NCBI RefSeq assembly: GCF_009830285.1
Contig: NZ_WUQX01000001.1
Location: forward strand, 2,914,501 to 2,978,500
Reading direction: 5' to 3'
Length of the DNA stretch: 64,000 nucleotides
From: Sporofaciens musculi
GTDB taxonomy: Bacteria; Bacillota; Clostridia; Lachnospirales; Lachnospiraceae
This document shows, piece after piece, positions 2,120-19,522 of this stretch (the stretch's first letter is position 1; each line of letters opens with the position of its first letter). The notes below the pieces were generated by a model. It did no database searches. It saw nothing but the letters and a program-made list of their open reading frames with translations, and was not told where the DNA came from. The translations under genes and the position numbers were made by a program.

Positions 2120-5100
2120 TTAGTCCTCCTTTTTCTTTCTTCCACACTGGTAGCCTGCAAATCCGAAGATTCCTGCACCGATTGTAAATGCCGCCGCAAG
2201 GCTCACCCACAAACCGAGGTTAAAGTCATCGCCTGTTTTCGGTGTGTCACGCAGCTCGTTGTGCATAGTGACAGTCGCCGTTTCGTCTGTCTTGATGGTC
2301 ACTTTCTGGTCGGCAGGCAGGATATAGCCAGAGGATGCCTTGTCGCTGACCTCAGAAACGGTGTATTCGCCGATACGCAAGCCGTCAATGACGATTTCGC
2401 CGTTTTTATCGGTGGTAAAGGTCTGGTCGTAATCTTTGCCAATGACACGGAAAGAGAAGCCCTCCACTTTGCCGTCCGAGGAAGTCTTGACGATTTTGAG
2501 TGAGCCTTTTTGTGCTTCATTTAAGAATCCTTTGCCTGCTTCATTCTCCACGTTGTAGGTCTTGCCATTTTCCTCAATGGATACAGGATAGACATTCTCA
2601 TCAAGCACAAAGCCTGTCGGGGCGGTTTTCTCACGGACAAGGTACTTGCCATAACGCAGGTCGTCCATCTGGTAAATGCCTTTCTCCACCTCACCCATCT
2701 CGCCGAGCAGTTCGTCTTTCTTATCCAGTTTGCCGTCACCGTTCATATCCGAGTAAACCTCGAATACCGCACCCGTGAGCTTGTTGTCTGGATAATCTTT
2801 ATCTACTTTCGTCAGAGCGATATTGCCTGTGATAAAATAATTGACAAGCTCAACCTCCACAACCTCGTCAACTTCGCCGATTGTCACGCTGATTTCTTCC
2901 TCGGAGAGTACATATCCTTTCGGGCTTTCGATTTCACGGATGACCCATGTGCCATACGGAACTTCTTCAAAAGAAAAACTGCCGTCATCCTCGGATGTGG
3001 CAGTCACAATCGCATTTTCCTTTGTATATTCTGTTGTGCCTGTCTGAAAGATGCCGATTAACGCACCGCCTAAATCTTCGCCGTCCTCATTGGACTTCTT
3101 ACCGCTGACAGAGCCGTAAATCAGTTCGTTTTCAATGGCTTCGCCCTCGTTCGCCGTGATGTTTACAACGGCTGTTTCCTGTCCTGCATATTCAAATACA
3201 ACAGGATACTTTTCATCGCTGACAAGATAAGCGGAATTTGTGCTGATTTCCTGCACATAGTAGCTGCCCATCGGTAAATCGCTGACTGCCTTTCCGTGAC
3301 CGTTTTCATCAAGGAAGATAACCTCAATCAGTTCATCCGCAGGGATAGAAGAACCGTCTGCGGCAGTCAGTTCCTCGGCGGCATACAGACCAAACGTAAC
3401 GTCTTTGATTTCGCCGTTATTTCCCACACCGTATGCTTCATCCACCTCAAGGCTCTTGATTACGTCGATTTCCACACGCTGACGCTCGTTGTAAAAATCC
3501 GTGCCTGCTTCCGTCACTTCGATTTCCTGTCTCGCATATACAAGCTCCACGGCGTGGACTTCCTCGCTTAACACCATGCCATACGGGGCGGTCACTTCCT
3601 TAACCTCATATCTTCCCAGATACAGTTCTTTTGATTCTGCCGTGCCGTCCTCTCCTGTGGTAAGCGTGTCTACAACCTCGCCTTTCTCGGCTCTGACCGT
3701 CCCATCCGTTGTGATAATGTTCTCGGCTGCTGTAATCTCATAAACCGCACCCTCAAGGCTGTCTACTACAAAAATCGGCTGATACAGCCCCTTGTTTCCT
3801 GATACCCTGCTGAATACCTCCCCAGACTTTTCTACCGTGATTTTTCCTTTTTGTGCCACGTTGGAGCGTTCCACTTTGACAATCGTGATGCCGCTTTCAT
3901 CCTCGGAATTTTCCTGTTCTACATCAAAATAAACTGGCTCGGAATCCAGAACGTAGCCATACGGAGCCTGCACCTCAACCAGAGAATATCCCTTGCCGTA
4001 TTCCAGAGTCTGCGGCGTGATAAGCTCACCGTCTGCGGTAGTGTAGAATGTGTCAATCGTTGTCACTTCGGGATAAGTGAACGTCATCGTCACAAGGTTT
4101 CCGTCTGGGTCGTAAATCTGGAATCCTGCACCTGCATATGGGATAACCCTGCCTGTTTCTATATCCTTTTTCACAATCTTGATATAGCTCTCAAAGTTGG
4201 CATTGTTAATGAGATAACGGTAGGTCTGGCTGTCCTTGCAGATAAATACGTCAAAATCTTTCATCAGCTCACGCCCGTCCCATCCAGAGGTCTGGTGAAC
4301 CGTATAAATGCCATACGGCATATCTTTTGTCTGTGCAAAGCCGTTTTCATCGCATATCAATGTGTCACGTTCCGTTTCCTCCGCCGCATCAAAGCTGCCT
4401 GCGGATTTTAAATATACCTCAAATACAGCCCCCTCCTCTGGCGTTTCAATCTGGGTTTCGCCGTTGTCAGTGTGCTTGATGATGGCGATATTGCCTTTGA
4501 TGACCTGCTCGTTTACGTCATTCTTTGCAGAATTATATTCCACGGTGTAAAGCTGCGGCTCTGCCCCTACATGGTGGATTGTGGTGTCCAGAAGATAGCC
4601 CTCGGACGGGGTAATCTCACGGATGCTCCAGTCATCGCCGCATACATAATATTTTGTTGTGAACTGCCCGTTTTCATCGGTGGTGTAAGTGTCAGCCAGT
4701 TCCTCGCCCTTATAGATGCCGTAAACCGCACCTGCAAGGGAAGCGTCGCCCTGCGGCTTCTTTCCTGTTTCCACGTCGGTCTTTAATACCGTGACATTGA
4801 ACTTCTTCAAAATGTTGTGGAAGCTGCGGTTTGTGACCTTTTTCCACTCAATCGGGGCGGTCTGGGATGCAGGGACGACATAGCGGACTGCCGTATCCAC
4901 TTCCTCAAGGGTATAAGGCGTGCTGCCGCTGATAAGGACATTTTCAAACTTCGCAACGCCCTTTGCATTGGTAACGGCATATTCATCAACAGCCAAGCCG
5001 CTTAAAGACGTGCCGTAAAGGTGGAACTTCACGCCCTCCACAAGATTATCCTCGGATGTTTTTACAACTTCCAGACTGCCACGCTTCAAAGTATTGCTGA

Positions 5101-6268
5101 ATGTGACCGTAGAGGTCTTTCCCCCGATAATCGTCACTGTCTGGGTTTTCTGCGGCTCATAACGGTCAATGGACTGCTCCGTAATGGTATAAGTGCCTGG
5201 AAATAAACCCTCCACCGTAATGTTTCCATTCTTATCGGTTTTCACGGTCTTATTGAAGCCGTCGCCCTTGATGGTAAAGGAAATCCCCGCAACAACGCCG
5301 TCCTCGGAAGTCTTTTTCAGTGCAACTGTGCCTGTCGGCGTTTCCACGTTGATATATGCCATCATGGTGTCCACGTTTTCCACGCCCGTAATGACATCCT
5401 GTAAGTTCGGGTCGCCGTAGGCAATCATCATCGCACCGCTGCTGACAGTCGGCGTGTTGTTCCTTGTAGCGGTAATCCTTGCCTTGCCGTCAATCGCCTT
5501 TGATGATGTGATGGTCAGCTTGTTCCCAGACTTGGACACCTTTACATTGCTGTCGGAGCTTGTAAAGGAATACTCGGACAACACGCCGTTGCTGTCGGTC
5601 AGCGTAAGACTGTATTTGCCGTCCTTATAGGCAAGCTCCTTTGTGACGTCTTTCTTCCCTGCCGACATAAAGCTCGGAATCGTGCTGTGCCTTGTAAGCA
5701 TCGACACAATCTGGTCGTAAGCCGCCCTCGCCCCGCTGTTAGCATAGTTTGAGCCAAAGTGCAGGCTGTAAACGGTCGTGCTTGTCTGGCTGTACGGGCT
5801 TGTGGCGTTGCGGCATCCCGTGACAAACTCCCACACAAGGGTCTGGGTGGCAAGCCATTTTTCATCATCACTCCCAGACAGGTTTCCGCTGTTGCCCTGA
5901 TACCCATAGAGCAGGGCAAGCCCCACCGCCTTTTTCTGGTCTGCGGAGAGGGCGTTCCATGTGTTGGAAGATGCTTTTGCAAGCGTATTGCCTGTTTTTA
6001 AGGGTACGCCCGGCTGAAGGCAGAACGCCGTTTCCCGGTCCACATACATACGGTACTTATATTCGCCTGTCCCTCCTGCGGTATGACCTCCAATGTTCGC
6101 ACTGGAATTGTATCTCATGGCGTTCCCTGCACCATCGTAGGTGTGGGTAAAGCTAATCGTTCCGATGTCGCCCGCCGCAAACGCTGTCGTGGCAGGGACG
6201 GCGGACAATGCCGTGACCGCAGCCAAAGCAAACGCCGCAGCCCTTTTGAATATTTTACGAATCTTCAT
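2120..6268 (-). CDS. Thioester-domain, CnaB-repeat (SpaA-like) surface adhesin with sortase signal
   Basis: This is a 1382-aa secreted wall protein. Residues 1-32 are a signal peptide (basic, then hydrophobic, ending TTAFAA). A TQXA/thioester domain follows, with the predicted cross-link between Cys83 (AFCLQPG) and Gln142 (TQTLVWE). About ten CnaB/SpaA-type beta-sandwich repeats fill the rest, recognisable by recurring G-Y/T-x-L/V-x-E endings such as YSLVEVQAPYGYVL and TYTITEQS. The C-terminus has a TPKTG sortase motif (1342-1346), a hydrophobic helix and the tail GRKKKED. Such proteins form isopeptide-stabilised adhesive stalks; thioester domains bind host surfaces covalently. The start follows AGGAGG. 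Carriage on a conjugative element suggests a role in recipient or host contact. Confidence 0.9.
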   Translation of the reverse strand: MKIRKIFKRAAAFALAAVTALSAVPATTAFAAGDIGTISFTHTYDGAGNAMRYNSSANIGGHTAGGTGEYKYRMYVDRETAFCLQPGVPLKTGNTLAKASSNTWNALSADQKKAVGLALLYGYQGNSGNLSGSDDEKWLATQTLVWEFVTGCRNATSPYSQTSTTVYSLHFGSNYANSGARAAYDQIVSMLTRHSTIPSFMSAGKKDVTKELAYKDGKYSLTLTDSNGVLSEYSFTSSDSNVKVSKSGNKLTITSSKAIDGKARITATRNNTPTVSSGAMMIAYGDPNLQDVITGVENVDTMMAYINVETPTGTVALKKTSEDGVVAGISFTIKGDGFNKTVKTDKNGNITVEGLFPGTYTITEQSIDRYEPQKTQTVTIIGGKTSTVTFSNTLKRGSLEVVKTSEDNLVEGVKFHLYGTSLSGLAVDEYAVTNAKGVAKFENVLISGSTPYTLEEVDTAVRYVVPASQTAPIEWKKVTNRSFHNILKKFNVTVLKTDVETGKKPQGDASLAGAVYGIYKGEELADTYTTDENGQFTTKYYVCGDDWSIREITPSEGYLLDTTIHHVGAEPQLYTVEYNSAKNDVNEQVIKGNIAIIKHTDNGETQIETPEEGAVFEVYLKSAGSFDAAEETERDTLICDENGFAQTKDMPYGIYTVHQTSGWDGRELMKDFDVFICKDSQTYRYLINNANFESYIKIVKKDIETGRVIPYAGAGFQIYDPDGNLVTMTFTYPEVTTIDTFYTTADGELITPQTLEYGKGYSLVEVQAPYGYVLDSEPVYFDVEQENSEDESGITIVKVERSNVAQKGKITVEKSGEVFSRVSGNKGLYQPIFVVDSLEGAVYEITAAENIITTDGTVRAEKGEVVDTLTTGEDGTAESKELYLGRYEVKEVTAPYGMVLSEEVHAVELVYARQEIEVTEAGTDFYNERQRVEIDVIKSLEVDEAYGVGNNGEIKDVTFGLYAAEELTAADGSSIPADELIEVIFLDENGHGKAVSDLPMGSYYVQEISTNSAYLVSDEKYPVVFEYAGQETAVVNITANEGEAIENELIYGSVSGKKSNEDGEDLGGALIGIFQTGTTEYTKENAIVTATSEDDGSFSFEEVPYGTWVIREIESPKGYVLSEEEISVTIGEVDEVVEVELVNYFITGNIALTKVDKDYPDNKLTGAVFEVYSDMNGDGKLDKKDELLGEMGEVEKGIYQMDDLRYGKYLVREKTAPTGFVLDENVYPVSIEENGKTYNVENEAGKGFLNEAQKGSLKIVKTSSDGKVEGFSFRVIGKDYDQTFTTDKNGEIVIDGLRIGEYTVSEVSDKASSGYILPADQKVTIKTDETATVTMHNELRDTPKTGDDFNLGLWVSLAAAFTIGAGIFGFAGYQCGRKKKED

Positions 6269-6315
6269 TCATTACCTCCTGTTCGTTCTCATGTTGATAG
6301 TTGACTTTCTGGCAG

Positions 6316-6343
6316 AAAAAAAGCCGCCCATGTGGACAGCTTT
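6316..6343 (-). terminator. Intrinsic terminator downstream of parB
   Basis: On the minus strand AAAGCTGTCC, a 4-nt loop and GGGCGGCTTT form a 10-bp stem (two G-T pairs) followed directly by a T-run. It separates the parB transcript from the surface-protein operon, so that operon probably has its own promoter in the roughly 45 bp between the terminator and 6268. Confidence 0.6.
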
Positions 6344-6533
6344 AATAATTCTTTTCTCGGATAGTTACTGGCAGTATCTAGGGGGAGAGGTGTGGAGAGG
6401 GGGTGCCGTGTGCCAGTGGCACACGTTTAGCACCGACCGAAGCGGAGCGGAGACAGCGGAAAAAAATTTGCTGTCCCTCAAGGGGCAGACTTCTCCCTCG
6501 GCGTTCCATGCCAAAATCCCTATTTTGCCTGTT
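6344..6533. other. Non-coding region with 19-bp palindrome between parB and the adhesin
   Basis: About 190 bp without a plausible gene. It contains the perfect interrupted palindrome CGTGTGCCA-G-TGGCACACG at 6407-6425, itself inside GGTGC...GCACC arms, and a second hairpin CTGTCCC...GGGCAG near 6470-6488. A perfect palindrome next to parB is a natural candidate for a ParB centromere (parS), an operator or part of a transfer origin. The choice between these is inference. Confidence 0.45.
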
Positions 6534-7481
6534 TTACCTCTCGTGAGCTTTGTTCCGCTGCAAATGGCGGTTATAAAACTCCAACGCCTTTACGACAAAA
6601 TCCGTTTCCTGCCCTCTGGGGATGGATTTCGGTATAAGCTTGGTTATCCGCTCGTCCTTAAAGGCGGGCTTCTCTTTCTGGTTTGGCTTGTCCTCCTGCA
6701 TGATGCTCTGGATAACCTCGTCTGTTAGCTTATCCTCCTGCATAAACTTTTTCATTTTGATAGCCTGTGCAAGTGAGGGCGTGGCATCGTTGTAGCCCAT
6801 CGCTTCAAGCAGGGTGTACTGCTGTTCCTCGGAAAGATAGGAAATCTCTACCGCAGGACGGAAAGCAATCTGGCGTTCATCTACCATTTGCAGAATTTCA
6901 GGTACAAGCTCGGTCAAGCGGATAAATCGGCGTATCTGCTCACGGCTCTCACCAACCTCTTTTCCCAACTTCTCATTTGTTCGGGGAGTTTCTAAATCTG
7001 ACACCACTGGTGTCAAATTATCTTTTGGTGGTCTGCCCGCTTGTCTGTTCATTGCTTCAAGCCGCATCTTATACGCAAAGGCTTTCTCACTCGGCAGAAT
7101 AACAGAGCGTTGGAGATTACTTTCAACCATGACAATAATCGCTTCATCATGGGTCAGCTCCTTAACCTCACATTTGAGCGTTTCAAGCCCTGCAAGCTCA
7201 CAAGCCTTTTTCCGCCTGTGACCGCTGATAAGCTCGTACCGTCCGTCCTCTTTTTGCCGAACTGTCGCAGGGGTCATTACGCCGCTCTGACTGACACTTT
7301 CCACAAGCTGCTCCATATCCTCATTCATCAAAACCTTGAATGGGTGGTCTGGGAACTCATCAATCTCGGAAATGGGTATCTCCCTTATCTTGCTTAGATT
7401 CGCTTCTGCTCGGCTCTCGTCTGTTTCAAAGAGGTCATCGTATGCGGTCAGCTCGATTTCTGTTCTTTTGTTTCTCGCCAA
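6534..7481 (-). CDS. parB: ParB/Spo0J-family partition protein
   Basis: The 315-aa protein has an N-terminal ParB nuclease/CTPase-like domain (residues about 35-130), including ELISGHRRKKACELAGL (GHRR box 2) and DEAIIVMVESNLQR (box 3). A central helix-turn-helix follows around residues 170-200 (LGKEVGESREQIRRFIRLTE). The family binds parS sites and loads onto DNA using CTP, working with ParA in segregation or maintenance. Translation begins at TTG 7481, preceded by AGGAGG with good spacing. Its usual partner parA lies upstream on the same strand, but two insertion sequences now separate them, so parB must use another promoter or read-through. Confidence 0.92.
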   Translation of the reverse strand: MARNKRTEIELTAYDDLFETDESRAEANLSKIREIPISEIDEFPDHPFKVLMNEDMEQLVESVSQSGVMTPATVRQKEDGRYELISGHRRKKACELAGLETLKCEVKELTHDEAIIVMVESNLQRSVILPSEKAFAYKMRLEAMNRQAGRPPKDNLTPVVSDLETPRTNEKLGKEVGESREQIRRFIRLTELVPEILQMVDERQIAFRPAVEISYLSEEQQYTLLEAMGYNDATPSLAQAIKMKKFMQEDKLTDEVIQSIMQEDKPNQKEKPAFKDERITKLIPKSIPRGQETDFVVKALEFYNRHLQRNKAHER

Positions 7482-7871
7482 TCTCTGCCACCTCCTAGTA
7501 TAATAATGGTGTAGTCAAGAATGACCACTGGTTAATAGTTACAAAGTCCAATCTAATAAATCTATATAGATATAACAGAAGGAGGAGTTCCCCCTCCATC
7601 AGAAGTTATAAGGCAACATTATTTACCCTGTCTGAGGTTTCCTTAATGCACCAGACAAAACATAGAGGTATAATCACTGGAGGCAGGATCATTGACGACG
7701 CCTCCTTGGGAACTGGCCTTCCGGCTGGTGAAACCTCTTAGAAAGTCTGTCAGTCCATTCGGTGGTGATTTATGTTTTGGCTGGTTGGGAAGCCCCAGGC
7801 TATACCTGTATAAACCGCTAGGTTGTGTATCCGCCCTCTGGAAATGGATACCTGCCTGAAAGGATAAAACC
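7482..7871. other. Non-coding left end of IS110-type element plus parB leader
   Basis: No convincing protein is encoded. Roughly 7482-7620 looks like parB leader sequence, including the GGAGGAGTTCCCCCTCC palindrome near 7580-7596. From about 7650 the sequence becomes rich in short stems and leads into the transposase ATG at 7872. The boundary between element and leader cannot be placed because IS110 elements lack clear terminal repeats. Confidence 0.4.
7650..7868 (+). ncRNA. Candidate IS110 bridge RNA
   Basis: IS110-subgroup elements encode a structured bridge RNA in the long non-coding left end just before the transposase; it pairs with target and donor DNA. This region has the right position and strand. 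It shows several stems: GGAGGC/GCCTCC near 7679-7707, ACTGGCC-TTCC-GGCTGGT near 7714-7732, and GTATCC/GGATAC near 7830-7850. The exact ends and guide loops cannot be fixed without covariance analysis. Confidence 0.45.
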
Positions 7872-9205
7872 ATGAAATACCAAAAAGTACTTATGATGCT
7901 TGAAAGCATCCCTTATCTCTCAGTCGGGCTTGATGTCGGCGCAGACTTCACCTGGATGTCCATCATGCTGCCCAATGGCATTCTCTCTGGAAAACCTTTT
8001 AAGATCATTCATTCTGATCCGCAGTCCCGTGAGCAAGCTGTCGCAAAAATAAAGGAAGCACAAGAGATGTATTCCCTCGAAAGCCGCTGCTTCCTTGAGT
8101 CCACCGGGATCTACCACATCCCGCTCCTGTACTTCCTTCGTGATAAGGGGTTTGACTGCTCAGTCATTAATCCTATCATCACTAAGAATAGCACAAATAT
8201 GAACGTTAGGAAACTGCATAATGATAAATTTGATTCAAAAAAAGCTGCCAAAGTCGGCCTGGATGCTTCCCTGAAGACTTCCATCATACCAGATGATGAG
8301 GTCATTGACCTGCGCAACCTGGTACGGGACTACTATTACTTCAAGGACCTGCAGTCCGCTGTCGTACTGAAGCTCACGGCGGAACTGAAAGTGTCCTTTC
8401 CCGCATACCGGAAAGTGTTTAGCAAGGTCACTACCCAAACTTCCTTAAAGCTCCTGGAAGCTTACCCCTTGCCGCAGACATGCTTGCCGCCCCAAAAGAC
8501 ATACTTGTGGAAACCATACGCAAAACCGCACGTTTCGGTGAAAAATATGCCGTTTCCAAATATGATGCCATACGTGCTGCCGCAAAGGACGCCGCTGTTT
8601 TCGGACGTGCGCTTCAAAGCAGTGCACTCCGGATCCGGCTGTATATCAAAACCTACCGGGAATACCAGGAGCATCTGGACAATATACTTGAGGACCTGCA
8701 TAAGGCTGTTGATAAGCTGGAAGGGACGCCGGTTTATGACCGTATCTTCCTTCTCCAGTCCCTGCGTGGTGTCGGTTTTCTCAGTGCAGCCGTCCTGATC
8801 GCTGAAATGGGCTCCTTTGACCTGTTTTCTTCCCCAAAGAAGCTTTATGCTTACTTCGGCTTGGATCCTGCCGTGAAGCAATCCGGCAAGTTCAATGGGG
8901 ATAAAGTCCACATGTCCAAGAGGGGTTCTAGCCTTGCCAGGCGTATCCTGCATATGGTGGCTATCAATAATCTTAAGGTGGATAAAGGGACAAAAACACC
9001 AGTAAATCCAGTTATCCACGGCTATTATACCGACAAATGCAAAAGCAAGAAGAAAAACGTGGCTGTCGGGGCTGTCATGCATAAAATCTGCAATATCATT
9101 TTTGCCATGCTCCGGGATAATAAACCATTTGAGATCATCACTCCTCAGGAACACTGTGAGCGGTATCTGGCAGCGCAGCCTGACAAGGTACGGAACGCAG
9201 CCTAA
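7872..9205 (+). pseudogene. IS110-family transposase, frameshifted
   Basis: The first frame (from ATG 7872, preceded by AAAGGA) encodes the DEDD RuvC-like domain, with Asp in GLDVGADFTW, Glu in FLESTGIYH and Asp in NDKFDSKKAA. Near 8464-8468 the frame changes. The second frame, open to 9205, encodes the C-terminal Transposase_20 domain (LQSLRGVGFLSAAVLIAEMG) with the serine region HMSKRGSSLARR. Restoring one C in the C-run rejoins the frames as LLEAYPLAADMLAAPKD at about 445 aa, the usual family length. Either the copy is inactivated or the consensus has lost one C. It lies between parA and parB. Confidence 0.8.
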
Positions 9206-9550
9206 CAGGTCTTATGAATTTTAAATAGTTCCACATGGGTGGGCTTATTAAAGTTACCCTTTTTACATCAAATGCTTCTGAAAAACTTTTTGTAACAGTT
9301 CAGCCTTGCGACTGGCAAAAGAGAGAAATTGAAAAAGTTTTTTCTTCTGATTATCCACATGGAAACACGTAATTTCACGAATTTTATTGCTTTGTGATTA
9401 GTATGTGGATAACTTTTGAACAACATGTCTGTTCAGAATCCCATTTTTCATAGTTTTTGTGACCGGTATTCCACAGAACCTCTGGAATACACAAAAATAA
9501 TCCACCGTCATTTTGACGAACCTATTCTAAAGAGGATTTTTCTTTTCTAT

Positions 9551-12164: not shown

Positions 12165-12848
12165 ATGGGACAACATTCAAAATACTCTTTTGAAATGAAA
12201 TTAGATGCCGTTACAAAATATTTGGAGGGAAGCTGTTCAACAGAAAGTATCGCCCGAAGCCTGGGAACAAATGGAACACGTATCGTCGAGTGGGTGACCT
12301 TGTATCAGTCTTTAGGAATAGAGGGGTTAAAAACAACTCCAAAACTCCGTATCTATTCCGCCGAAACAAAACAAAATGCTGTTGCCGATTACCTTTCCGG
12401 CAAAGGAACATTAAGGGAAATCCAGAAAAAGTATGGAATCCGCTCAGATAAGCAGCTTCGCAACTGGATTATGAAGTATAATGGTCATGAGAAGTTAAAG
12501 ACTTCTGGAACAGGAGGAACCAGCGTCATGACCAAAGGAAGAAAAACCTCATATGAGGAACGGGTGGAAATTGTAACATACTGCATAGAGCATGGAATGG
12601 ATTATGCCCAGGCAGCAGAAAAATACCAGGTATCCTACCAACAGATTTACCAATGGACAAGGAAATACCAGTCAAACGGCGTAGAAGGGCTTATTGACAA
12701 AAGAGGGAAAAGAAAATCTGAAACAGAAATGTCGGAACTGGAGAAGCTGCGTGCGGAAAATAAGCTTCTTCAAGCGGAAAAGCGCAGAGCCCAGCTGGAG
12801 GTTGCTTTCTTAAAAAAACTCGACGAAATCGAAAGGAGGCGGTTCTAA
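12165..12848 (+). CDS. IS3/IS150-type transposase OrfA (DNA-binding subunit)
   Basis: The 227-aa protein has two to three helix-turn-helix units: SIARSLGTNGTRIVEWVTLY, TLREIQKKYGIRSDKQLRNW and DYAQAAEKYQVSYQQIYQWT. A C-terminal leucine-zipper coiled coil follows (ELEKLRAENKLLQAEKRRAQ). It recognises the element ends and, when fused by frameshifting to OrfB, forms the active transposase. The start is preceded by AAGGAGG. A slippery A_AAA_AAA run at 12812-12818, near the 3' end, allows the -1 shift into OrfB. Confidence 0.85.
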   Translation: MGQHSKYSFEMKLDAVTKYLEGSCSTESIARSLGTNGTRIVEWVTLYQSLGIEGLKTTPKLRIYSAETKQNAVADYLSGKGTLREIQKKYGIRSDKQLRNWIMKYNGHEKLKTSGTGGTSVMTKGRKTSYEERVEIVTYCIEHGMDYAQAAEKYQVSYQQIYQWTRKYQSNGVEGLIDKRGKRKSETEMSELEKLRAENKLLQAEKRRAQLEVAFLKKLDEIERRRF

Positions 12849-13735
12849 GCCAGACACAAAATGAAACGGTTTATCTGGCGATACAGGAAATATATGACGA
12901 GCAGGGATGCTCAATATCAGAACTCTGCAGATTTGCGGGAATTTCGCGTTCTGCTTATTATAAATGGCTGAACCGAAAACCAAGTGAAAATGAGAAATTC
13001 AACCAGAAATTATGTGTCCTTATCAGAGATGCGTACGAGGAAAAAAGCGGAATTCTGGGTTACAGGCAGATGACGATTAAATTGAACCGTGAAAATGAAT
13101 TTCAAGTCAACGCAAAGAGAATCTTGCGCCTTATGCGGATTTTACATCTGAAATCTGTGTGCCGGCGCAGGAGAAGAAACTATGTAAAATCAACGCCAGA
13201 GGTTACTGCCGAAAACATCTTAAACCGGGAGTTCCATGCGGAACGTTTTGGGGAAAAATGGCTTACGGATGTAACGGAGATGAAATATGGAGCCAGTGGG
13301 AAGGCATACCTGAGCGCCATTCTGGACTTGTCAGATAAAAGTATTGTTTCCTTTGTCATTGGACATTCCAATAATAATGCCCTTGTTTTTGAAACCTTTG
13401 ACACTGCCCATGAAAACCATCCAGATGCAAGGCCTTTATTCCACAGTGACCGTGGATACCAATACACCTCAAAATACTTCCGTAAAAAGCTTAACAAAGC
13501 GGGAATGACACAAAGCATGTCAAGAGTATCCAGATGTATTGATAACGGACCAATGGAAGCGTTCTGGGGGATGCTGAAATCAGAAATGTATTACCTGAAG
13601 AAATTTCAAACATATGAGGAGCTAAAGGAGGCTGTATCAGATTACATAGATTATTATAATAATCATCGGTATCAGAAACGCTTAAACTGTATGACACCGA
13701 TAGAATATAGAAACTATTTGAAAGATGCTGCATAA
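12839..13735 (+). CDS. IS3/IS150-type transposase OrfB (DDE catalytic subunit, by -1 frameshift)
   Basis: This frame has no good start of its own and is continuous from before 12820, so it is probably expressed as OrfAB after slippage at A_AAA_AAA 12812-12818. It contains the HTH_21 region (KSGILGYRQMTIKLNRENEF) and an rve integrase core with DDE residues: Asp in WLTDVTEM, Asp in LFHSDRGYQYTS and Glu in NGPMEAFWGMLKSE. The D-E spacing is normal and the C-terminal YNNHRYQKRL motif is present. No frame damage is seen. Confidence 0.82.
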   Translation, partial: AVLSQTQNETVYLAIQEIYDEQGCSISELCRFAGISRSAYYKWLNRKPSENEKFNQKLCVLIRDAYEEKSGILGYRQMTIKLNRENEFQVNAKRILRLMRILHLKSVCRRRRRNYVKSTPEVTAENILNREFHAERFGEKWLTDVTEMKYGASGKAYLSAILDLSDKSIVSFVIGHSNNNALVFETFDTAHENHPDARPLFHSDRGYQYTSKYFRKKLNKAGMTQSMSRVSRCIDNGPMEAFWGMLKSEMYYLKKFQTYEELKEAVSDYIDYYNNHRYQKRLNCMTPIEYRNYLKDAA

Positions 13736-14029: not shown

Positions 14030-14075
14030 AAATGCCAGTGTTCTTTCCTAACAACACCTAATATTTTCTATTGCA

Positions 14076-14870
14076 TCATTTAAAATTTAGACCTACTTCA
14101 TAAGGAAACGGAATTGTTAAATCTTTAGGTCTTTCTGTAAATATTATTCTTTTAGAAATAGCCACCATAAAACCAAACTCAAACATTGTACCTTTTCCAA
14201 TAAAGCCATCAGGATTACATACAATAATAGCATCGGATTGCCGAAATTTATTCATATGTATATATTTATGTTTCCAAGCATCACGCTTATTTTTTAGAGG
14301 CTCTTGACCCTCCAAAAGAATAAAATCAGTTCCTAAAGTTTCTGGTACAACCTTTGTTGTCCAAGGACTTAATACTTCAATGTTGTATTTTTGCAAAACA
14401 GTCATTATATCACCGATTTCATCCAAATGCTGTTGAAAGCTACCACATACTACAACTTTTCTGAATTCCTGATGTATCAAACCCTCCATTATATTTTTAG
14501 ACCCATAAATGGATATGCTTTTTTCCAAATAAAATTGTTCCAAATCGGGCTGTATAATATTAAAATAAAGCCCATAATCCACAAAAGTATGAATTATTAG
14601 TTTGGTTTGATCTGTAGAATTAAATTTTTGAAATATTCCAATAGCATACAATCGGATACGCTCATTATTAACCGTTCCAACACTCTTTTCCAAAGTATCT
14701 AAAAATCCATCAAGTTTTTCCAATAATGCCTCTGTCACAGAGCATCCTTCAAAAGTAACACATTCCTCACTCAACAATTTTAACGTATTTTCTTTTAAAC
14801 TATAGACCTTAATGACATTTGTATTAAAAAGAACCAGTACTCTATTTTCTACTATCAACATATCATACAT
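14076..14870 (-). CDS. Nucleoside 2-deoxyribosyltransferase-like protein with unknown N-terminal domain
   Basis: The C-terminal half (residues about 135-260 of 264) has the deoxyribosyltransferase/Rossmann-like layout. KVVVCGSF begins the fold, SDAIIVCNPDG holds the acidic loop, and GTMFEFGFMVAISKRI matches the xGTxxExGxAxAxGK signature with the candidate nucleophilic Glu. Family members cleave or exchange N-glycosidic bonds of (deoxy)nucleosides or nucleotides. The N-terminal 125 residues (including VTEALLEKLDGFLDTLEKSV) form a separate domain I do not recognise. It is the last gene of an AT-rich minus-strand set with two DNA glycosylases and a methyltransferase, so it may act on a modified or damaged nucleotide. 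AGAGGGT precedes ATG 14870. Confidence 0.6.
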   Translation of the reverse strand: MYDMLIVENRVLVLFNTNVIKVYSLKENTLKLLSEECVTFEGCSVTEALLEKLDGFLDTLEKSVGTVNNERIRLYAIGIFQKFNSTDQTKLIIHTFVDYGLYFNIIQPDLEQFYLEKSISIYGSKNIMEGLIHQEFRKVVVCGSFQQHLDEIGDIMTVLQKYNIEVLSPWTTKVVPETLGTDFILLEGQEPLKNKRDAWKHKYIHMNKFRQSDAIIVCNPDGFIGKGTMFEFGFMVAISKRIIFTERPKDLTIPFPYEVGLNFK

Positions 14871-14956
14871 ACCCTCTTTCTTATAGACCTAACCTTACTC
14901 AACCATAAAACCAATAAATTTACAACTACACTCTGAAAATGATAAGCATAGTATGT

Positions 14957-15592
14957 TCAACTACATAAGGCGTTGATATATTTCTCCATAAACACATCTT
15001 TACGCTTTGAATTGTATTGCATAATAAAGCGTGGATGTTCTAATGGTATAATTGTGTTAAAAAAATTATATTCACTGTTAACTTTTGATAAGAAGGCATA
15101 GTTTTCTCCACTTCCAATACAGTAGCATACCGAGGTGTCAATTCCAAAATTTATTTGACTACGTATTGCACTAATAATGAAAGAATATAAAGTCTCTTGT
15201 AATTTTTTGTTTTCATAGTAATTACAATTAACTTCATTACCTTTTGCATTTATCCTAACTATACCAAGGGGACAAACAAAATTCATATAAAAATCAGTAT
15301 AAAATTTCTTACAACCTCCATACTCTTTCATAACATCATATAAAAATCCTGATGATGATTTATTTACATAAAATTTATCAATAAAAATTCCCGTTTCACT
15401 CTGAAGATGTTTGGCATCTTCGAAAGGAATTCCTGTTACAGCTGTGCCTCTTCGTGCGGGCGAGCTGCCAAGTATTAAACGACGAGTAGAGGTATCATTA
15501 TAGTATTTTTTATAAAAAGCAGTTGTTACCTCCTTAACTTGCTGTTTTTGCTCTCCTACAAAAGGATTAATAATTTTATATCCTGATGGCAA
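14957..15592 (-). CDS. SMUG2-type (DUF4918) uracil-DNA glycosylase, 5' end disrupted
   Basis: The body has the SMUG2 signatures: INPFVGE, LILGSSPARRGTAVTGIPF (catalytic loop region) and LEHPRFIMQY near the C-terminus (distal motif), 211 aa from TTG 15592. Homology-like sequence continues upstream (TFAEQVLQFNEKLSHELFEL) to about 15655, where the frame meets TGA at 15656-15658. The best ribosome site and ATG (15667) lead into ATG TAT GAG TGA, or in another frame to MSEK. The 5' end therefore carries a nonsense or 2-nt frameshift change. It may be a pseudogene, be made from TTG, or reflect a sequence error. The family removes uracil or oxidised pyrimidines from DNA. Confidence 0.68.
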   Translation of the reverse strand: MPSGYKIINPFVGEQKQQVKEVTTAFYKKYYNDTSTRRLILGSSPARRGTAVTGIPFEDAKHLQSETGIFIDKFYVNKSSSGFLYDVMKEYGGCKKFYTDFYMNFVCPLGIVRINAKGNEVNCNYYENKKLQETLYSFIISAIRSQINFGIDTSVCYCIGSGENYAFLSKVNSEYNFFNTIIPLEHPRFIMQYNSKRKDVFMEKYINALCS

Positions 15593-15800
15593 TTCAAATA
15601 ATTCATGCGAAAGTTTTTCATTGAATTGTAATACTTGTTCAGCAAATGTCTTTTTTCACTCATACATTATTACTCCTCTTTTTTCATTTTCCAATGAAAC
15701 AAATTTTTTATTTTACTATTATCCGTCACTGTGGTTGGCATATGAACCTTTCCATAAATTGAAAAAACAATTGGATTTAATCGTTTAGTAATGAATACTC

Positions 15801-17048
15801 CTAGGCAGCAATCGCCGATAAATATATCTCTGTATTAGTAGGAATAAGTTGTATATTCTTAAATCCTAATCGAATAAATTCATTATGTATTAGTTTAGAT
15901 GTATTTATACCACGATAAATATCAACAAATTCTGTTCCAGGAATGATTAAGCCAGGAACAATACCATGTTTCTCCGAACACAAAAAACCATTAGCCACAG
16001 AAATAATAATTACTGCGTCAGTTTTTAGCACCCTATGTGCTTCTGATATTGCTTCCTTTATATCAAAAAACGATGAGTTGTATGTCCTTAAAGATACATA
16101 TAAATCATAACTATTATCAGGTATAGAAAACAAACTTCCAGCACTAGAAACAATAATCTTTGATAAAGGAATATGTTCTTTTATCCTTTCCAAACTACTT
16201 TGTACGATATCTACAAAAGTAACATGGGTACAATTGGAAAACAGAGCTATTGCCTCATGCCCACCACCAACACCAACATTTAATATATTAATAGCGGACA
16301 TATTTTTTTCAGATGACCTCTTATAAACAGATATAAAATTTTCTTTCCAGTCCACATCAAGCGAACGAGTATCATCTGAATAATTATACGATGCGTATTT
16401 ACTACTAAAAGCCTCGGATATCACACCAGATACAATACCGTTAGCTTCCGAATATTCAATCCCATATCTATCACAAAGTATTGATGCTATTGCAGATTTG
16501 CTTTTATTTGTATTAAGTTCATCCTTAGAAATAACAAACCCTCTTAATTTCAGCTTTTCAATAACCAAATTGCTAATTCTATTTTCAGAATAGTAAGGAC
16601 TATATTTGATATGTTGTTTACTTTCTGAAAAAAATTGATAGTTCTGTTCTAATATCTCACGCTGCAATTTATCAGGATAACGGTATACACAATCAAATAC
16701 AATAGCAGGATCATTATCCCAATAACATGTTAAAGTAGGGTCTGGAAGACCCACGTATATTTCATTAATGCTAATCCTCTTTAACAGTTTAATTAAATCA
16801 AATGAACAATCCTTTGATATTGTATTTATCGTAAGATAAATACTCTGTGCATGAGATATTTTGAGTTTCTGTATCTTTCTTAAAAGAACAAAATACCATG
16901 ATTCATTGCAAGTTTCACCTGAGTAAGCAGAACAGAGTAATTTGTTTTGTTCAGATACAAGAACAGTGCCTACCCGCAAAAGTGAAGGAGATACTTTCTT
17001 TGATATATCAATCGAATATTGCATCCAATACATACTGTTAACATTCAT
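15801..17048 (-). CDS. Degenerate RibD-like deaminase domain fused to SAM methyltransferase
   Basis: A 415-aa two-domain protein. Residues about 1-110 align with the RibD/CDA deaminase fold (YWMQYSIDISKKVSPSLLRV, then INEIYVGLPDPTLT). The zinc signature is abnormal: the usual HAE is CNE in ETCNESWYFVLL, and the PCxxC element is missing (ITINTIS-like region), so deamination is doubtful. Residues about 240-415 form a class I methyltransferase: NILNVGVGGGHEAIALF is motif I, VTFVDIVQSS is motif II, and YDLYVSLRTYN and EAHRVLKTDAVIIISVANG follow. It starts within 3 nt of the glycosylase stop, with GGAGGAT overlapping that gene's end, so the two are translationally coupled. A nucleobase, nucleotide or small-molecule substrate is likely; the identity is unknown. 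Confidence 0.65.
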   Translation of the reverse strand: MNVNSMYWMQYSIDISKKVSPSLLRVGTVLVSEQNKLLCSAYSGETCNESWYFVLLRKIQKLKISHAQSIYLTINTISKDCSFDLIKLLKRISINEIYVGLPDPTLTCYWDNDPAIVFDCVYRYPDKLQREILEQNYQFFSESKQHIKYSPYYSENRISNLVIEKLKLRGFVISKDELNTNKSKSAIASILCDRYGIEYSEANGIVSGVISEAFSSKYASYNYSDDTRSLDVDWKENFISVYKRSSEKNMSAINILNVGVGGGHEAIALFSNCTHVTFVDIVQSSLERIKEHIPLSKIIVSSAGSLFSIPDNSYDLYVSLRTYNSSFFDIKEAISEAHRVLKTDAVIIISVANGFLCSEKHGIVPGLIIPGTEFVDIYRGINTSKLIHNEFIRLGFKNIQLIPTNTEIYLSAIAA

Positions 17049-17051
17049 ATT

Positions 17052-17720
17052 TTATCCTCCTTGTCCCAAAATCGCTTCGTCAAAGGGCTTTTGTGTTAAC
17101 CCTAATGAGATAGACTTCCACAAGTACGAAGAAACAATCGTGGCATATTCATTCCAATTAGTAAAATATTTTGCTAATTCTTTTGAAGAAGGCAAGTCTT
17201 CTAAACCATACATCCATTGAATAGTACGCCTAATTGTTCCATCTCCTTTTGAAAGTACATTTTCTCGTCCTAATGAAAAAATTAAATACATTTCAGCCGT
17301 CCACTGCCCAATGCCCTTTAAAGCCGTTAACCTTGTGATAATCTCCTCATTTGAAAAGTTTTTAAACTCCTCAAAATCTATTCTCTTCTCAACAACACTT
17401 TCTGCTAATATTTTAATATACTCTACTTTACGACTGGACAACCCTACCTCCCGAAGATCACTAGTGCCTGTTGAAAACATTATATCGGGCGTTACATTAC
17501 CAAAAATGGTACAGATTCGTTGCCAAATGGTTTCACGAGCTTTATCGCTTATTTGCTGCCCTACAATATATTTGACAAGACATTTAAAACCATCTTTTTC
17601 CATAGCTAATTCGCTAGTACCGATGTATCTAATTAACCTTTCTAACGTCTTATCAGTACGAATAAGATATTGTACCTTCTCATCATTTAAATCATATTTT
17701 AAGTAAACCATATCTCTCAC
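17052..17720 (-). CDS. AlkA-type HhH-GPD DNA-3-methyladenine glycosylase
   Basis: The 222-aa protein contains the HhH-GPD core: KYIVGQQISDKARETIWQRI, then LTALKGIGQWTAEMYLIFSL (helix-hairpin-helix) and, after it, KGDGTIRRTI with the catalytic Asp. The family excises alkylated or otherwise damaged purines. It lacks the N-terminal beta domain of E. coli AlkA, which is common in Firmicutes. GTG 17720 is the longest start; ATG 17711 is also possible, and neither has a strong ribosome site. It heads an AT-rich gene set downstream of rlmD on the same strand and is coupled to the deaminase-methyltransferase gene. The context suggests dedicated base editing or self-protection rather than general repair. 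Confidence 0.85.
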   Translation of the reverse strand: MRDMVYLKYDLNDEKVQYLIRTDKTLERLIRYIGTSELAMEKDGFKCLVKYIVGQQISDKARETIWQRICTIFGNVTPDIMFSTGTSDLREVGLSSRKVEYIKILAESVVEKRIDFEEFKNFSNEEIITRLTALKGIGQWTAEMYLIFSLGRENVLSKGDGTIRRTIQWMYGLEDLPSSKELAKYFTNWNEYATIVSSYLWKSISLGLTQKPFDEAILGQGG

Positions 17721-17854
17721 TCACTCTAATCATTATTATAATCATTTACTTATTTTAATCTTTTCCCCATTCAGAAACACATATTTAAGGTTCAATTTTC
17801 CGCAATGTCCATCATTTCCTCAAAGGAAACCGTCCCACCATTTCTAAGCTACAA

Positions 17855-19522
17855 TCAAATCATACGAAAATGTTCCAATGCTTCTCTTATAGCCATTTCT
17901 TTCTCTAACGGACATTTTGGCTGTCTGGAATTTTCCGATTTTGGCAGATTATAATTTGCCCTCTCAATAATACCACATTTCTCCTTTACCTGTGCTATAT
18001 ATAAACTGCTGACTTTCAATCCCGTATGCTCCAACACATAATCCTTGATTTCCTCATAGGTGGCTTTGCTCTCCGCAGCCGTCAAATCAAGCTCGTCCAT
18101 CTGAAGCTCTACCTCGATATGTTGGTCTGCATGAAGTTTGGACAATAAACATACCGTCTCTACATGCACCGTCTGCGGAAACTGATCCACCGCCCTCACC
18201 CTCTCAACCTCATACCCTTCCCCCCTCAGGTACTTCAAATCCCTCGAAAGCGTCGCCGGATCACAACTCACATACACAACCCTCTTTGCCCCCATCTCAA
18301 CAATCGTCCTAAGCAGCCCCTCATCGCACCCTTTCCTTGGCGGGTCAACCACTACCACATCCGCATAATATTTTCTCCCCTCATGCTCCTCCTCATATTT
18401 CTTCCCAAATTCCGGCAGAACCTTCTCCGCCTTCCCCTCAAAAAACTCCACATTCCCAATCCCATTTATCTTAGCATTCATCCTTGCGTCCAAAACCGCC
18501 TGAGGCACAATCTCCACCCCATATACCTGTTTTGCCTTCTTTGCCAGAAACAGCGAAATAGTCCCAATCCCACAATACAGATCCCACACCGTTTCCTCAC
18601 CCGTAAGCTGCGCATATTCCATTGCCACCCCATAGAGCTTCTCCGTCTGCACAGGATTCACCTGATAAAAAGACAGCGGAGAAATCTGATACTTCACATC
18701 CCCAATCACATCTGTAATATACGTCTGCCCCCACAACAGGCGAATCTCATTCCCCATAATCACATTTGTTCTCTCCCGATTAACGCTATAAGTTATACTG
18801 GTCATACCTTCAATCCCAGACAAACGTTCTGCCAGTACCTCCCCATGTGGAATCCCATTCCCATTAATTACCAGACAGACCATAATCTCTCTGGTCCGGA
18901 AGCCGTATCGAATCAACACATGTCGAACCAGCCCCCTATGCTCCTCCTCATGATAGGCGCTGATACGAAATTCCTCCATAAAATCAATCACGCACCGCAG
19001 AATCCGTTCATTCACCTCCACCCCCAATGCACATCTGGTATTTGGAATAATACTGTGGGTTCTACCAGCATAGAACCCTGCGACAATCCTCCCATCTCTA
19101 TCCGTTCCAACTGGAAACTGGGCTTTATTCCTATATGCAAATGGATTCTCCATCCCCACAATCGGCTCCATAGCTTTTGAAACAATCTCCTCTGGTATCC
19201 CCCCAATCCGTATAAGCTTCTCTCTTACCTTGTCCTCCTTGAAGCTCAACTGCCTGCCATACTCCATCTCTTGAATTTGACACCCGCCGCAGCTTCGGGC
19301 CATGGGGCAGACAGGCTTTTTTACACGGAATTCGGAAGGCGTGACAATATTCACTAATTTTGCATATGCATAATTCTTCTTTGCCTTCATAATCTTGGCT
19401 TCCACAACATCCCCAATGACAGCGTCCTTAATAAACAGCGCATACCCTTCTATTTTCCCAATCCCTTCGCCATTGCTGCCTATATCCTCAATCCTTACTG
19501 TAGCAATATCATTCTTCCTCAT
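17855..19522 (-). CDS. rlmD: 23S rRNA (uracil-C5)-methyltransferase RlmD/RlmCD type
   Basis: A 555-aa enzyme. Residues 1-58 form a TRAM RNA-binding domain (MRKNDIATVRIEDIGSNGEG). A four-Cys iron-sulfur region has CPMARSCGGCQIQ. The methyltransferase core has VWDLYCGIGTISLFLA (SAM motif), VVVDPPRKGC and the catalytic VVYVSCDPATLSRDL. It methylates uridine in 23S rRNA. About 95 extra C-terminal residues (from LHADQHIEVELQMDELDLTA) form an appended domain found in many Clostridia homologues; its role is unknown to me. This is a chromosomal gene; the left mobile region begins within about 135 bp of its 3' end. Confidence 0.92.
   Translation of the reverse strand: MRKNDIATVRIEDIGSNGEGIGKIEGYALFIKDAVIGDVVEAKIMKAKKNYAYAKLVNIVTPSEFRVKKPVCPMARSCGGCQIQEMEYGRQLSFKEDKVREKLIRIGGIPEEIVSKAMEPIVGMENPFAYRNKAQFPVGTDRDGRIVAGFYAGRTHSIIPNTRCALGVEVNERILRCVIDFMEEFRISAYHEEEHRGLVRHVLIRYGFRTREIMVCLVINGNGIPHGEVLAERLSGIEGMTSITYSVNRERTNVIMGNEIRLLWGQTYITDVIGDVKYQISPLSFYQVNPVQTEKLYGVAMEYAQLTGEETVWDLYCGIGTISLFLAKKAKQVYGVEIVPQAVLDARMNAKINGIGNVEFFEGKAEKVLPEFGKKYEEEHEGRKYYADVVVVDPPRKGCDEGLLRTIVEMGAKRVVYVSCDPATLSRDLKYLRGEGYEVERVRAVDQFPQTVHVETVCLLSKLHADQHIEVELQMDELDLTAAESKATYEEIKDYVLEHTGLKVSSLYIAQVKEKCGIIERANYNLPKSENSRQPKCPLEKEMAIREALEHFRMI

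Follow-up and report, generated by a model that had tools for sequence, protein, structure and literature searches.

A 64,000-nucleotide stretch of the genome of Sporofaciens musculi (Lachnospiraceae; contig NZ_WUQX01000001.1, positions 2,914,501 to 2,978,500), hereafter the window, carries a set of four genes, three of which form a conserved core found in three bacterial phyla. The core encodes a RibD-like deaminase fold fused to an S-adenosylmethionine (SAM) methyltransferase (RibD-MT), a SMUG2-type protein of the uracil-DNA glycosylase (UDG) superfamily and a nucleoside deoxyribosyltransferase-like (NDT) protein. The fourth gene, coding for an AlkA-type glycosylase, is accessory. We propose, with a probability of roughly 40%, that the set is a mobile module whose activities center on a modified pyrimidine-type nucleotide. 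The four genes are as follows:

17720-17052, minus strand: predicted AlkA-type (HhH-GPD) base-excision glycosylase, 222 aa; accessory gene
17048-15801, minus strand: RibD-MT, RibD-like deaminase fold fused to a methyltransferase, 415 aa; first core gene
15592-14957, minus strand: SMUG2-type protein of the UDG superfamily, 211 aa; second core gene
14870-14076, minus strand: NDT-like protein, 264 aa; third core gene

An initial annotation of the window had described the same four open reading frames, all of which were found at these coordinates on the minus strand, and its family names were right in outline according to Pfam-type matches. It had also noted the AT-richness of the set, whose guanine-plus-cytosine (GC) content is 0.315 against 0.483 in the remainder of the window, and the coupling of the first two genes, which are separated by 3 bases, with a GGAGG motif lying within the 3' end of the AlkA gene. 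Its view of the four genes as one unit stands for RibD-MT, SMUG2 and NDT, but not for AlkA, which is present in only 12 of the 38 loci compared here.

These 38 loci comprise 32 from one RibD-MT pattern scan of genome contigs, a lower bound, five plasmid records and the window itself; related strains among them are not independent. The scan seeds lie within the methyltransferase part, and a RibD domain lacking a methyltransferase would thus escape. The plasmid search found full-length RibD-MT in five Streptomyces plasmids out of 72,556 plasmid records, and all five also hold a full-length NDT with SMUG2 in between. The hosts revealed by the contig scan belong to Bacillota (Lachnospiraceae, Oscillospiraceae, Erysipelotrichaceae and others), Alphaproteobacteria (Caedibacter, Rickettsiales and one further alphaproteobacterial bin) and Actinomycetota (Streptomyces, Kitasatospora and Saccharothrix). 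SMUG2 follows RibD-MT in 36 of the 38 loci and NDT comes next in 35, so that the three genes adjoin in the same order in 35/38 loci across the three phyla, which answers the question, raised by the initial annotation, of whether these families occur together elsewhere. As for the three exceptions, the contig ends within the first 35 residues of the SMUG2 gene in L041 (E 2.9e-9) and 424 bases past SMUG2 in L048, where the start of NDT is weakly matched (E 0.48), and a transposase lies downstream in L021. Furthermore, L050 retains only a fragment of NDT, and RibD-MT is broken or partial in L041, L050 and L051.

We observed that the core genes are closely co-inherited. Among 353 Streptomyces genomes, drawn around one genome picked for having the set and itself counted here, SMUG2 (E<=1e-10) and RibD-MT (E<=1e-30) were each detected in nine, and the nine are identical. 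Distance matrices of the core proteins were correlated over all loci (r 0.91-0.95, 33-34 loci) and among 15-16 non-actinobacterial ones (r 0.56-0.72), with 0 of 500 permutations as high; common descent alone could explain these correlations. The ratio of nonsynonymous to synonymous substitution rates (dN/dS) was 0.04-0.44 in 21 of 24 comparisons and undefined in three, dS being saturated in some. The core genes are under purifying selection.

RibD-MT consists of a RibD-like deaminase fold (residues 1-125), a helical part (126-230) and a class I SAM methyltransferase (234-413; Methyltransf_11, E 6.7e-12), and its structure was predicted with a mean predicted local distance difference test (pLDDT) score of 90.6. 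The N-terminal domain aligned with 14 RibD sequences of relatives at an HHalign probability of 90.2 (E 1.5e-6), while the other two domains, used as controls, reached 0.4 and 0.2. The deaminase family PF00383 was matched at E<=0.05 by 13 of 23 members (best 0.0013). Trp51, Asp103 and Asn75, the last of which takes the place of the Glu in EPC, do not vary. The zinc ligands of RibD, HAE and PCxxxC, are gone, in line with the earlier description of a degenerate RibD-like deaminase fused to a methyltransferase. Compared with the RibD riboflavin deaminase, RibD-MT shares the fold and a DP motif behind the last strand but has no conserved His or Cys, lacks the reductase domain and is fused to a methyltransferase. 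The latter keeps the glycine motif and the acidic residue. By sequence it is nearest to UbiE/NodS-type models, a DNA methylase model being weakly matched by one of 23 members (E 0.041), and the 50 best entries of its fold list are all methyltransferases or proteins with such a domain, with no deaminase. A toxoflavin methyltransferase stands at rank 21 of this list. Toxoflavin synthesis needs a GTP cyclohydrolase gene, and a toxoflavin-type synthesis was rejected as no such gene was noticed beside the core, although no profile search for one was made.

The SMUG2 protein of the window matches the UDG superfamily (E 9.9e-13) and aligns over its whole length with 5h0j (phmmer E 9.3e-61; profile E 1.7e-71). 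Together with 5h0k, this is the only solved chain matched at E<=1 by phmmer; it was deposited as an 'uncharacterized protein', and we take it to be Pedobacter heparinus SMUG2, which Pang et al. reportedly described in 2017 as a DNA glycosylase. The two proteins share motif 2 (EHPRF), but the Pedobacter protein has GINPGRFG as motif 1 and a long branch separates them. His186, in motif 2, and Asp59 are invariant in the cassette proteins. The window copy may be shortened, since its frame is open to 15655 with no start codon upstream of the TTG at 15592. The SMUG2 proteins of relatives are intact with about 24 extra N-terminal residues, about 21 of which can be read in frame in the window.

The NDT protein of the window matches Nuc_deoxyrib_tr at E 2e-6, with a score of 28.4 bits that lies 0.4 below the cut-off of 28.8. 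It is made of a Ppx/GppA-like half domain (residues 9-125) and a nucleoside deoxyribosyltransferase-like domain (136-245). The initial assignment to a deoxyribosyltransferase-like family therefore applies to the C-terminal half, where PF05014 was found in 22 of 22 members at E<=1e-3, and not to the N-terminal half. Glu231 is conserved in 34/34 proteins and was placed by eye, from its motif, as the nucleophilic Glu; likewise by eye, a Phe after GS falls at the position of the pyrimidine-stacking Phe22 of MilB. In a fold search with the predicted structure (pLDDT 87.6), the 33 best matches were Ppx/GppA phosphatases, the short alignments spanning about 118-130 residues at 3.1-3.9 A; a profile match was weak (E 0.014). 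NDT homologues were present in one of 41 genomes of relatives, too few for a profile comparison.

The accessory AlkA protein carries an HhH-GPD domain (E 5.7e-16), its best solved relative is 2h56 (E 2.8e-37), and Asp160, presumably the catalytic-type Asp, is found in 12 of 12 family members. Twelve of the 20 non-actinobacterial loci carry AlkA upstream of the core, as against none of the 18 actinobacterial ones; it could have been overlooked in L044, L050 and L051, where the upstream sequence is short or the gene is cut. The same AlkA type (E<=1e-10) occurred in five of 18 host genomes, each with AlkA in the cassette, and in none of nine actinobacterial genomes. A NUDIX gene is located directly upstream in four of the 20 non-actinobacterial loci (L037, where it is split, L042, L043 and L046), while L050 retains a fragment of one, and a thymidylate-kinase-like gene lies behind NDT in L022. 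In L025, a Ppx/GppA-like protein, the family of the half domain of the cassette NDT, is encoded at 8421-9323 and ends 7 bases before the AlkA frame. ABC-transporter-type genes, all of one broad family, were found near three of 20 non-actinobacterial and four of 18 actinobacterial loci.

Comparison with genomes of the same genus confirmed that the set was acquired horizontally, as initially suggested. The features concerned are:

14048..17850: insert extent; the flanks of both ends are nearly joined in the same-genus locus L060
17855..19522, minus strand: flanking host gene for an rlmD-type RNA methyltransferase, kept in the same genus
12165..13735, plus strand: transposase pair on the other side of the set, absent at the empty site of L060

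In L060, only 64-80 bases lie between the two sequences that border the insert in the window (up to 14048 and from 17850), and about 440 bases separate the corresponding blocks in a second genome of the genus (L062). The approximately 3.8 kb with the four genes are therefore extra in the window and constitute an AT-rich insert beside a host gene. We take this gene to be of RumA/RlmCD type. Counting the window's own genome, 11 of 12 genomes of the genus hold a copy with 66% identity or more; the twelfth, 62% complete, gave only a match of 35%. The transposase pair is presumably of IS3 type. No exact repeat longer than 8 bases is common to both insert ends, and no clear target duplication was seen. 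Full-length RibD-MT was found in one of 61 genomes, the window's own, 14 others matching in the methyltransferase region alone; likewise, RibD-MT (E<=1e-30) and SMUG2 (E<=1e-10) were each detected in one of 391 genomes of the class, again the window's own. The GC content of the set is below that of its flanks in 34 of 38 loci (by no more than 0.010 in five) and above it in four; in all 18 actinobacterial loci it is lower, by 0.05 to 0.13.

Several other loci lie on or beside mobile DNA, with some gene assignments in L038, L052 and L040 made by eye. In L040, the set follows a cut copy of a penicillin-binding-protein gene and is followed by a coupling-protein-like gene. A similar penicillin-binding-protein gene is split in L038 (2454-10709) and L052 (7227-15482) by an element that carries genes for a serine recombinase and a DUF5655 protein in addition to the four-gene set. 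In L023, the neighbors of the set are a coupling-protein-like gene and a gene that by eye resembles a relaxase; in L043, they are tRNA and tmRNA genes. Rfam searches returned only tmRNA and tRNA in eight other loci and no match around the cassette of the window. In L051 (7170-14030), RelA/SpoT-like pieces, recognized by eye, flank the cassette on both sides, which suggests that a host gene was duplicated or disrupted by the insertion.

In Actinobacteria, the core is accompanied by a biosynthetic-type module. In 17 of 18 loci it is followed by genes for an adenylating ligase that begins with a carrier domain, for a ketosynthase and another protein resembling one, and for a carrier-thioesterase (ACP-ligase, KS, CLF and ACP-TE). 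The domains were read from the Streptomyces locus L017 and presence elsewhere was determined by tblastn. Two module genes are more than 1 kb apart in L029 and L045, and the Saccharothrix locus L035 is the only actinobacterial one without the module. In the 20 non-actinobacterial loci, tblastn did not find the module, the one match being to the ligase in L022 (23%), and a ketosynthase set as a general, fixed partner of the core was rejected on this ground. Of the 353 Streptomyces genomes, 11 have a ketosynthase with 87% identity or more, namely the nine with the core plus G793 and G778, which lack the core. As the sequence that these two share with L017 begins inside the ligase gene, we read their loci as broken remnants, a reading rather than a proof. 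More distant ketosynthases (53-74%) were found in 39 further Streptomyces genomes without the core, three of these regions having been examined. In L017 (20113-20502) and 16 other Streptomyces or Kitasatospora loci, a conserved 129-aa protein is encoded on the opposite strand, with a weaker match in L035. It has no Pfam match above cut-off, and its ICGSTRF motif presumably resembles another nucleoside deoxyribosyltransferase-like family.

The gene composition of the set matches no system compared here, and no description of the combination of RibD-MT, SMUG2, NDT and AlkA was found among the papers listed by searches of the open-access literature, in agreement with the initial annotation. None of the known systems, some compared by description only, appears to share its defining features as a whole. 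One parallel is a human pair: DNPH1, an NDT-fold enzyme, destroys hydroxymethyl-dUMP, and without DNPH1 it is SMUG1 that removes hydroxymethyldeoxyuridine from DNA (PMC10603095). An NDT-fold N-glycosidase and a SMUG-type glycosylase thus handle one modified pyrimidine at the level of the pool and of DNA; these are human genes, though, and the consulted text of that paper describes no RibD-MT or Ppx half domain. MilB and BlsM, CMP or hydroxymethyl-CMP N-glycosidases of nucleoside antibiotic clusters, resemble NDT in fold, catalytic Glu and, by eye, the aromatic stacking position; MilB frees 5-hydroxymethylcytosine from hydroxymethyl-CMP in mildiomycin synthesis (PMC4081090), but the cassette NDT differs by its N-terminal Ppx-like domain and a Gln at the Arg23 position, read by eye. 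No MilA-type hydroxymethylase was seen beside the core, and no profile search for one was made. Brig1 and Brig3-BapA also involve a UDG-superfamily glycosylase within a small gene set, but the best structural match of Brig1 is a family 4 UDG, and not SMUG2, and the partners described are an ADP-ribosylglycohydrolase (Brig1) and BapA (Brig3) (PMC11078745, PMC13160076). Neither partner was seen among the recurring neighbors of the cassette, with no profile search made. Finally, the actinobacterial module is like the cispentacin type II polyketide synthase-like pair AmcF-AmcG in combining an adenylating enzyme, carrier domains, a ketosynthase and a ketosynthase-like protein, (PMC10698177), and unlike it in that the L017 ketosynthase scores level with FabF and below the AmcF cut-off and in that the module, but for the ligase match in L022, was not found in the 20 non-actinobacterial loci.

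We infer every substrate and reaction of the proposed pyrimidine module. The dead RibD pocket of RibD-MT would hold a pyrimidine nucleotide, and the methyltransferase would use SAM to methylate that base or a closely related one. NDT would split the N-glycosidic bond of the resulting nucleotide to yield the free base, while SMUG2, together with AlkA where present, would excise the same or a related base from the host's own DNA; where a locus encodes a NUDIX enzyme, this would clear the triphosphate of the base. The ligase, ketosynthase and thioesterase genes of Actinobacteria would supply a small acyl product, to which the base or nucleotide would be attached or alongside which it would be made. 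We favor this reading because each of the three core folds belongs to a family that includes pyrimidine binders, because a biosynthetic-type module accompanies the core in Actinobacteria and because the accessory proteins (NUDIX, thymidylate-kinase-like, Ppx/GppA-like and AlkA) handle nucleotides or bases. The co-inheritance of the core genes, the human NDT-fold and SMUG enzymes acting on one modified base (PMC10603095) and the release of 5-hydroxymethylcytosine by MilB (PMC4081090) lend it further support.

Several observations weigh against it. Over residues 1-125 of RibD-MT, conservation in 80% of the 35 aligned rows is reached by neither a His nor a Cys, so that this domain should not deaminate, and among the 50 best fold matches of RibD-MT are enzymes that methylate rRNA, Bud23 for example. 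Motif 1 of SMUG2 reads GSSPARRG in 36/36 proteins; GINPG normally carries the catalytic Asn, and as this residue is absent, glycosylase activity is not assured. No NDT is listed among the 50 best matches of the NDT fold search, and the position of the phosphate-binding Ser of DNPH1 and MilB is apparently occupied by Gly (by eye). No recurring synthesis genes were seen among the neighbors outside Actinobacteria, and the ABC-transporter-type genes belong to a common family that may be present by chance. The best NCBIfam model for the L017 ketosynthase is AmcF, at 181 bits against a cut-off of 325, with FabF at 180; a cispentacin-type label was thus rejected. Lastly, the GSSPARRG type of SMUG2 also occurs without the other core genes, in a Listeria monocytogenes record (NZ_LR134400.1); this copy is 76% identical, and a tree places it among the cassette copies without resolution.

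This lone gene (L053:8929-9636) lies directly behind a TetR-type regulator. Partial SMUG2 matches were also found on one Streptomyces and one Streptococcus plasmid, neither of which was matched in the RibD-MT or NDT searches. Searches of viral contigs with RibD-MT and NDT, as single sequences and as alignments, and of a phage collection with RibD-MT gave nothing useful. With SMUG2, the phage collection returned four unannotated records labelled Listeria phage (one of them L054), 75% identical to the SMUG2 of the window, which may be host DNA.

A bolder version of the pyrimidine module, which we hold only tentatively, would make one modified pyrimidine a mobile weapon or shield that the three enzymes make, release and guard against, with the dead deaminase as substrate holder and the re-tooled SMUG2 as guard, in gut anaerobes, Alphaproteobacteria and Streptomyces alike. 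The initial annotation had suggested defense, synthesis with self-protection or repair as possible roles, of which synthesis with self-protection gains some weight from the biosynthetic-type partner genes of the actinobacterial loci. The idea of two DNA glycosylases has to be qualified, as both families are present but the SMUG2 active site is altered and AlkA is optional.

Alternatively, the set may not make a base at all, and may instead shield the cell from a nucleoside analogue of outside origin or from the product of a competitor, which we consider somewhat doubtful. NDT would destroy the analogue nucleotide, SMUG2 and AlkA would clear it from DNA, NUDIX would remove the triphosphate and RibD-MT would inactivate the analogue by methylation; in Actinobacteria, the set would give the producer of such a compound resistance to its own cluster's product. 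All the catalytic pieces can indeed be read as clearance. The position beside a biosynthetic-type module in 17/18 actinobacterial loci is consistent with this role, as are the lack of such a module elsewhere, with several loci on mobile DNA, and the lone Listeria SMUG2, which would suit a single protective gene. However, a fixed three-gene order over phyla exceeds, in our judgement, the usual need of resistance, RibD-MT is kept as strictly as both hydrolases, and we know of no such analogue.

An anti-phage defense directed at phages with modified bases appears unlikely, although UDG-superfamily glycosylases are described as protecting against T-even phages (PMC11078745, PMC13160076). NDT would deplete modified deoxynucleoside monophosphates in the course of infection, SMUG2 and AlkA would excise modified bases from phage DNA in the manner of Brig1 and Brig3, and RibD-MT would sense or mark the nucleotide. 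The sporadic, horizontal spread of the set, at times on mobile DNA or beside tmRNA, would fit, and L025 adjoins a type III restriction gene; one flanking protein matches DrmD, and we take it to be the helicase-like protein of L025 at 5646-8249. However, the four proteins matched in PADLOC only mad2, by generic methyltransferase similarity (E 6.2e-9), and, weakly, a nuclease (E 0.021). Flanking proteins of non-actinobacterial loci were searched with PADLOC and Pfam when at least 150 aa long (101 proteins from 18 loci, out of 152 from 19); among the best 25 of 78 PADLOC families, none had more than three members at E<=1e-10, the Pfam results likewise covering the best 25 of 111 families. Furthermore, the actinobacterial partner module is biosynthetic in type.

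Less probable still is a modification of bases in place, whereby SMUG2 would flip a DNA or RNA base for methylation by RibD-MT, with NDT and AlkA as housekeeping enzymes. UDG-type proteins are base flippers, a SMUG2 with GSSPA instead of GINPG is nonetheless under purifying selection, and the resemblance of RibD-MT to rRNA methyltransferases such as Bud23 would agree with this role. In contrast, the models nearest to the methyltransferase by sequence are of UbiE/NodS type, with the DNA methylase match weak and limited to one of 23 members, and the conserved EHPRF motif and Asp59 of SMUG2 suit catalysis. A chance neighborhood of decaying repair genes, in favor of which one could cite the window's SMUG2 frame without a start codon before 15592 and the broken or partial copies in L041, L050, L051 and L055, has virtually no probability, as it is refuted by co-occurrence (identical order in 35/38 loci of three phyla, the same nine of 353 Streptomyces genomes) and runs counter to purifying selection.

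Elsewhere in the window, the rlmD-type protein (17855-19522) is extended at its C-terminus by about 100 aa, and pieces related to this extension occur alone and repeatedly in same-genus genomes. The gene at 2120-6268 codes for a surface-type protein of 1382 aa, in which a thioester domain is combined with eight SpaA-type stretches. Conjugation genes are likewise present in the window, and the region 28058-61772 holds genes of at least one mobile element, including two large serine recombinases, a group II intron-type reverse transcriptase, a coupling protein, MobA/MobL, a TraG-like ATPase and a topoisomerase.

Altogether, the RibD-MT, SMUG2 and NDT genes are a closely co-inherited set that horizontal transfer has spread over three phyla. 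If the pyrimidine module that we favor is real, it would represent a new nucleobase product or a new way of policing modified bases, and would give a purpose to a SMUG2 protein without the Asn of motif 1.

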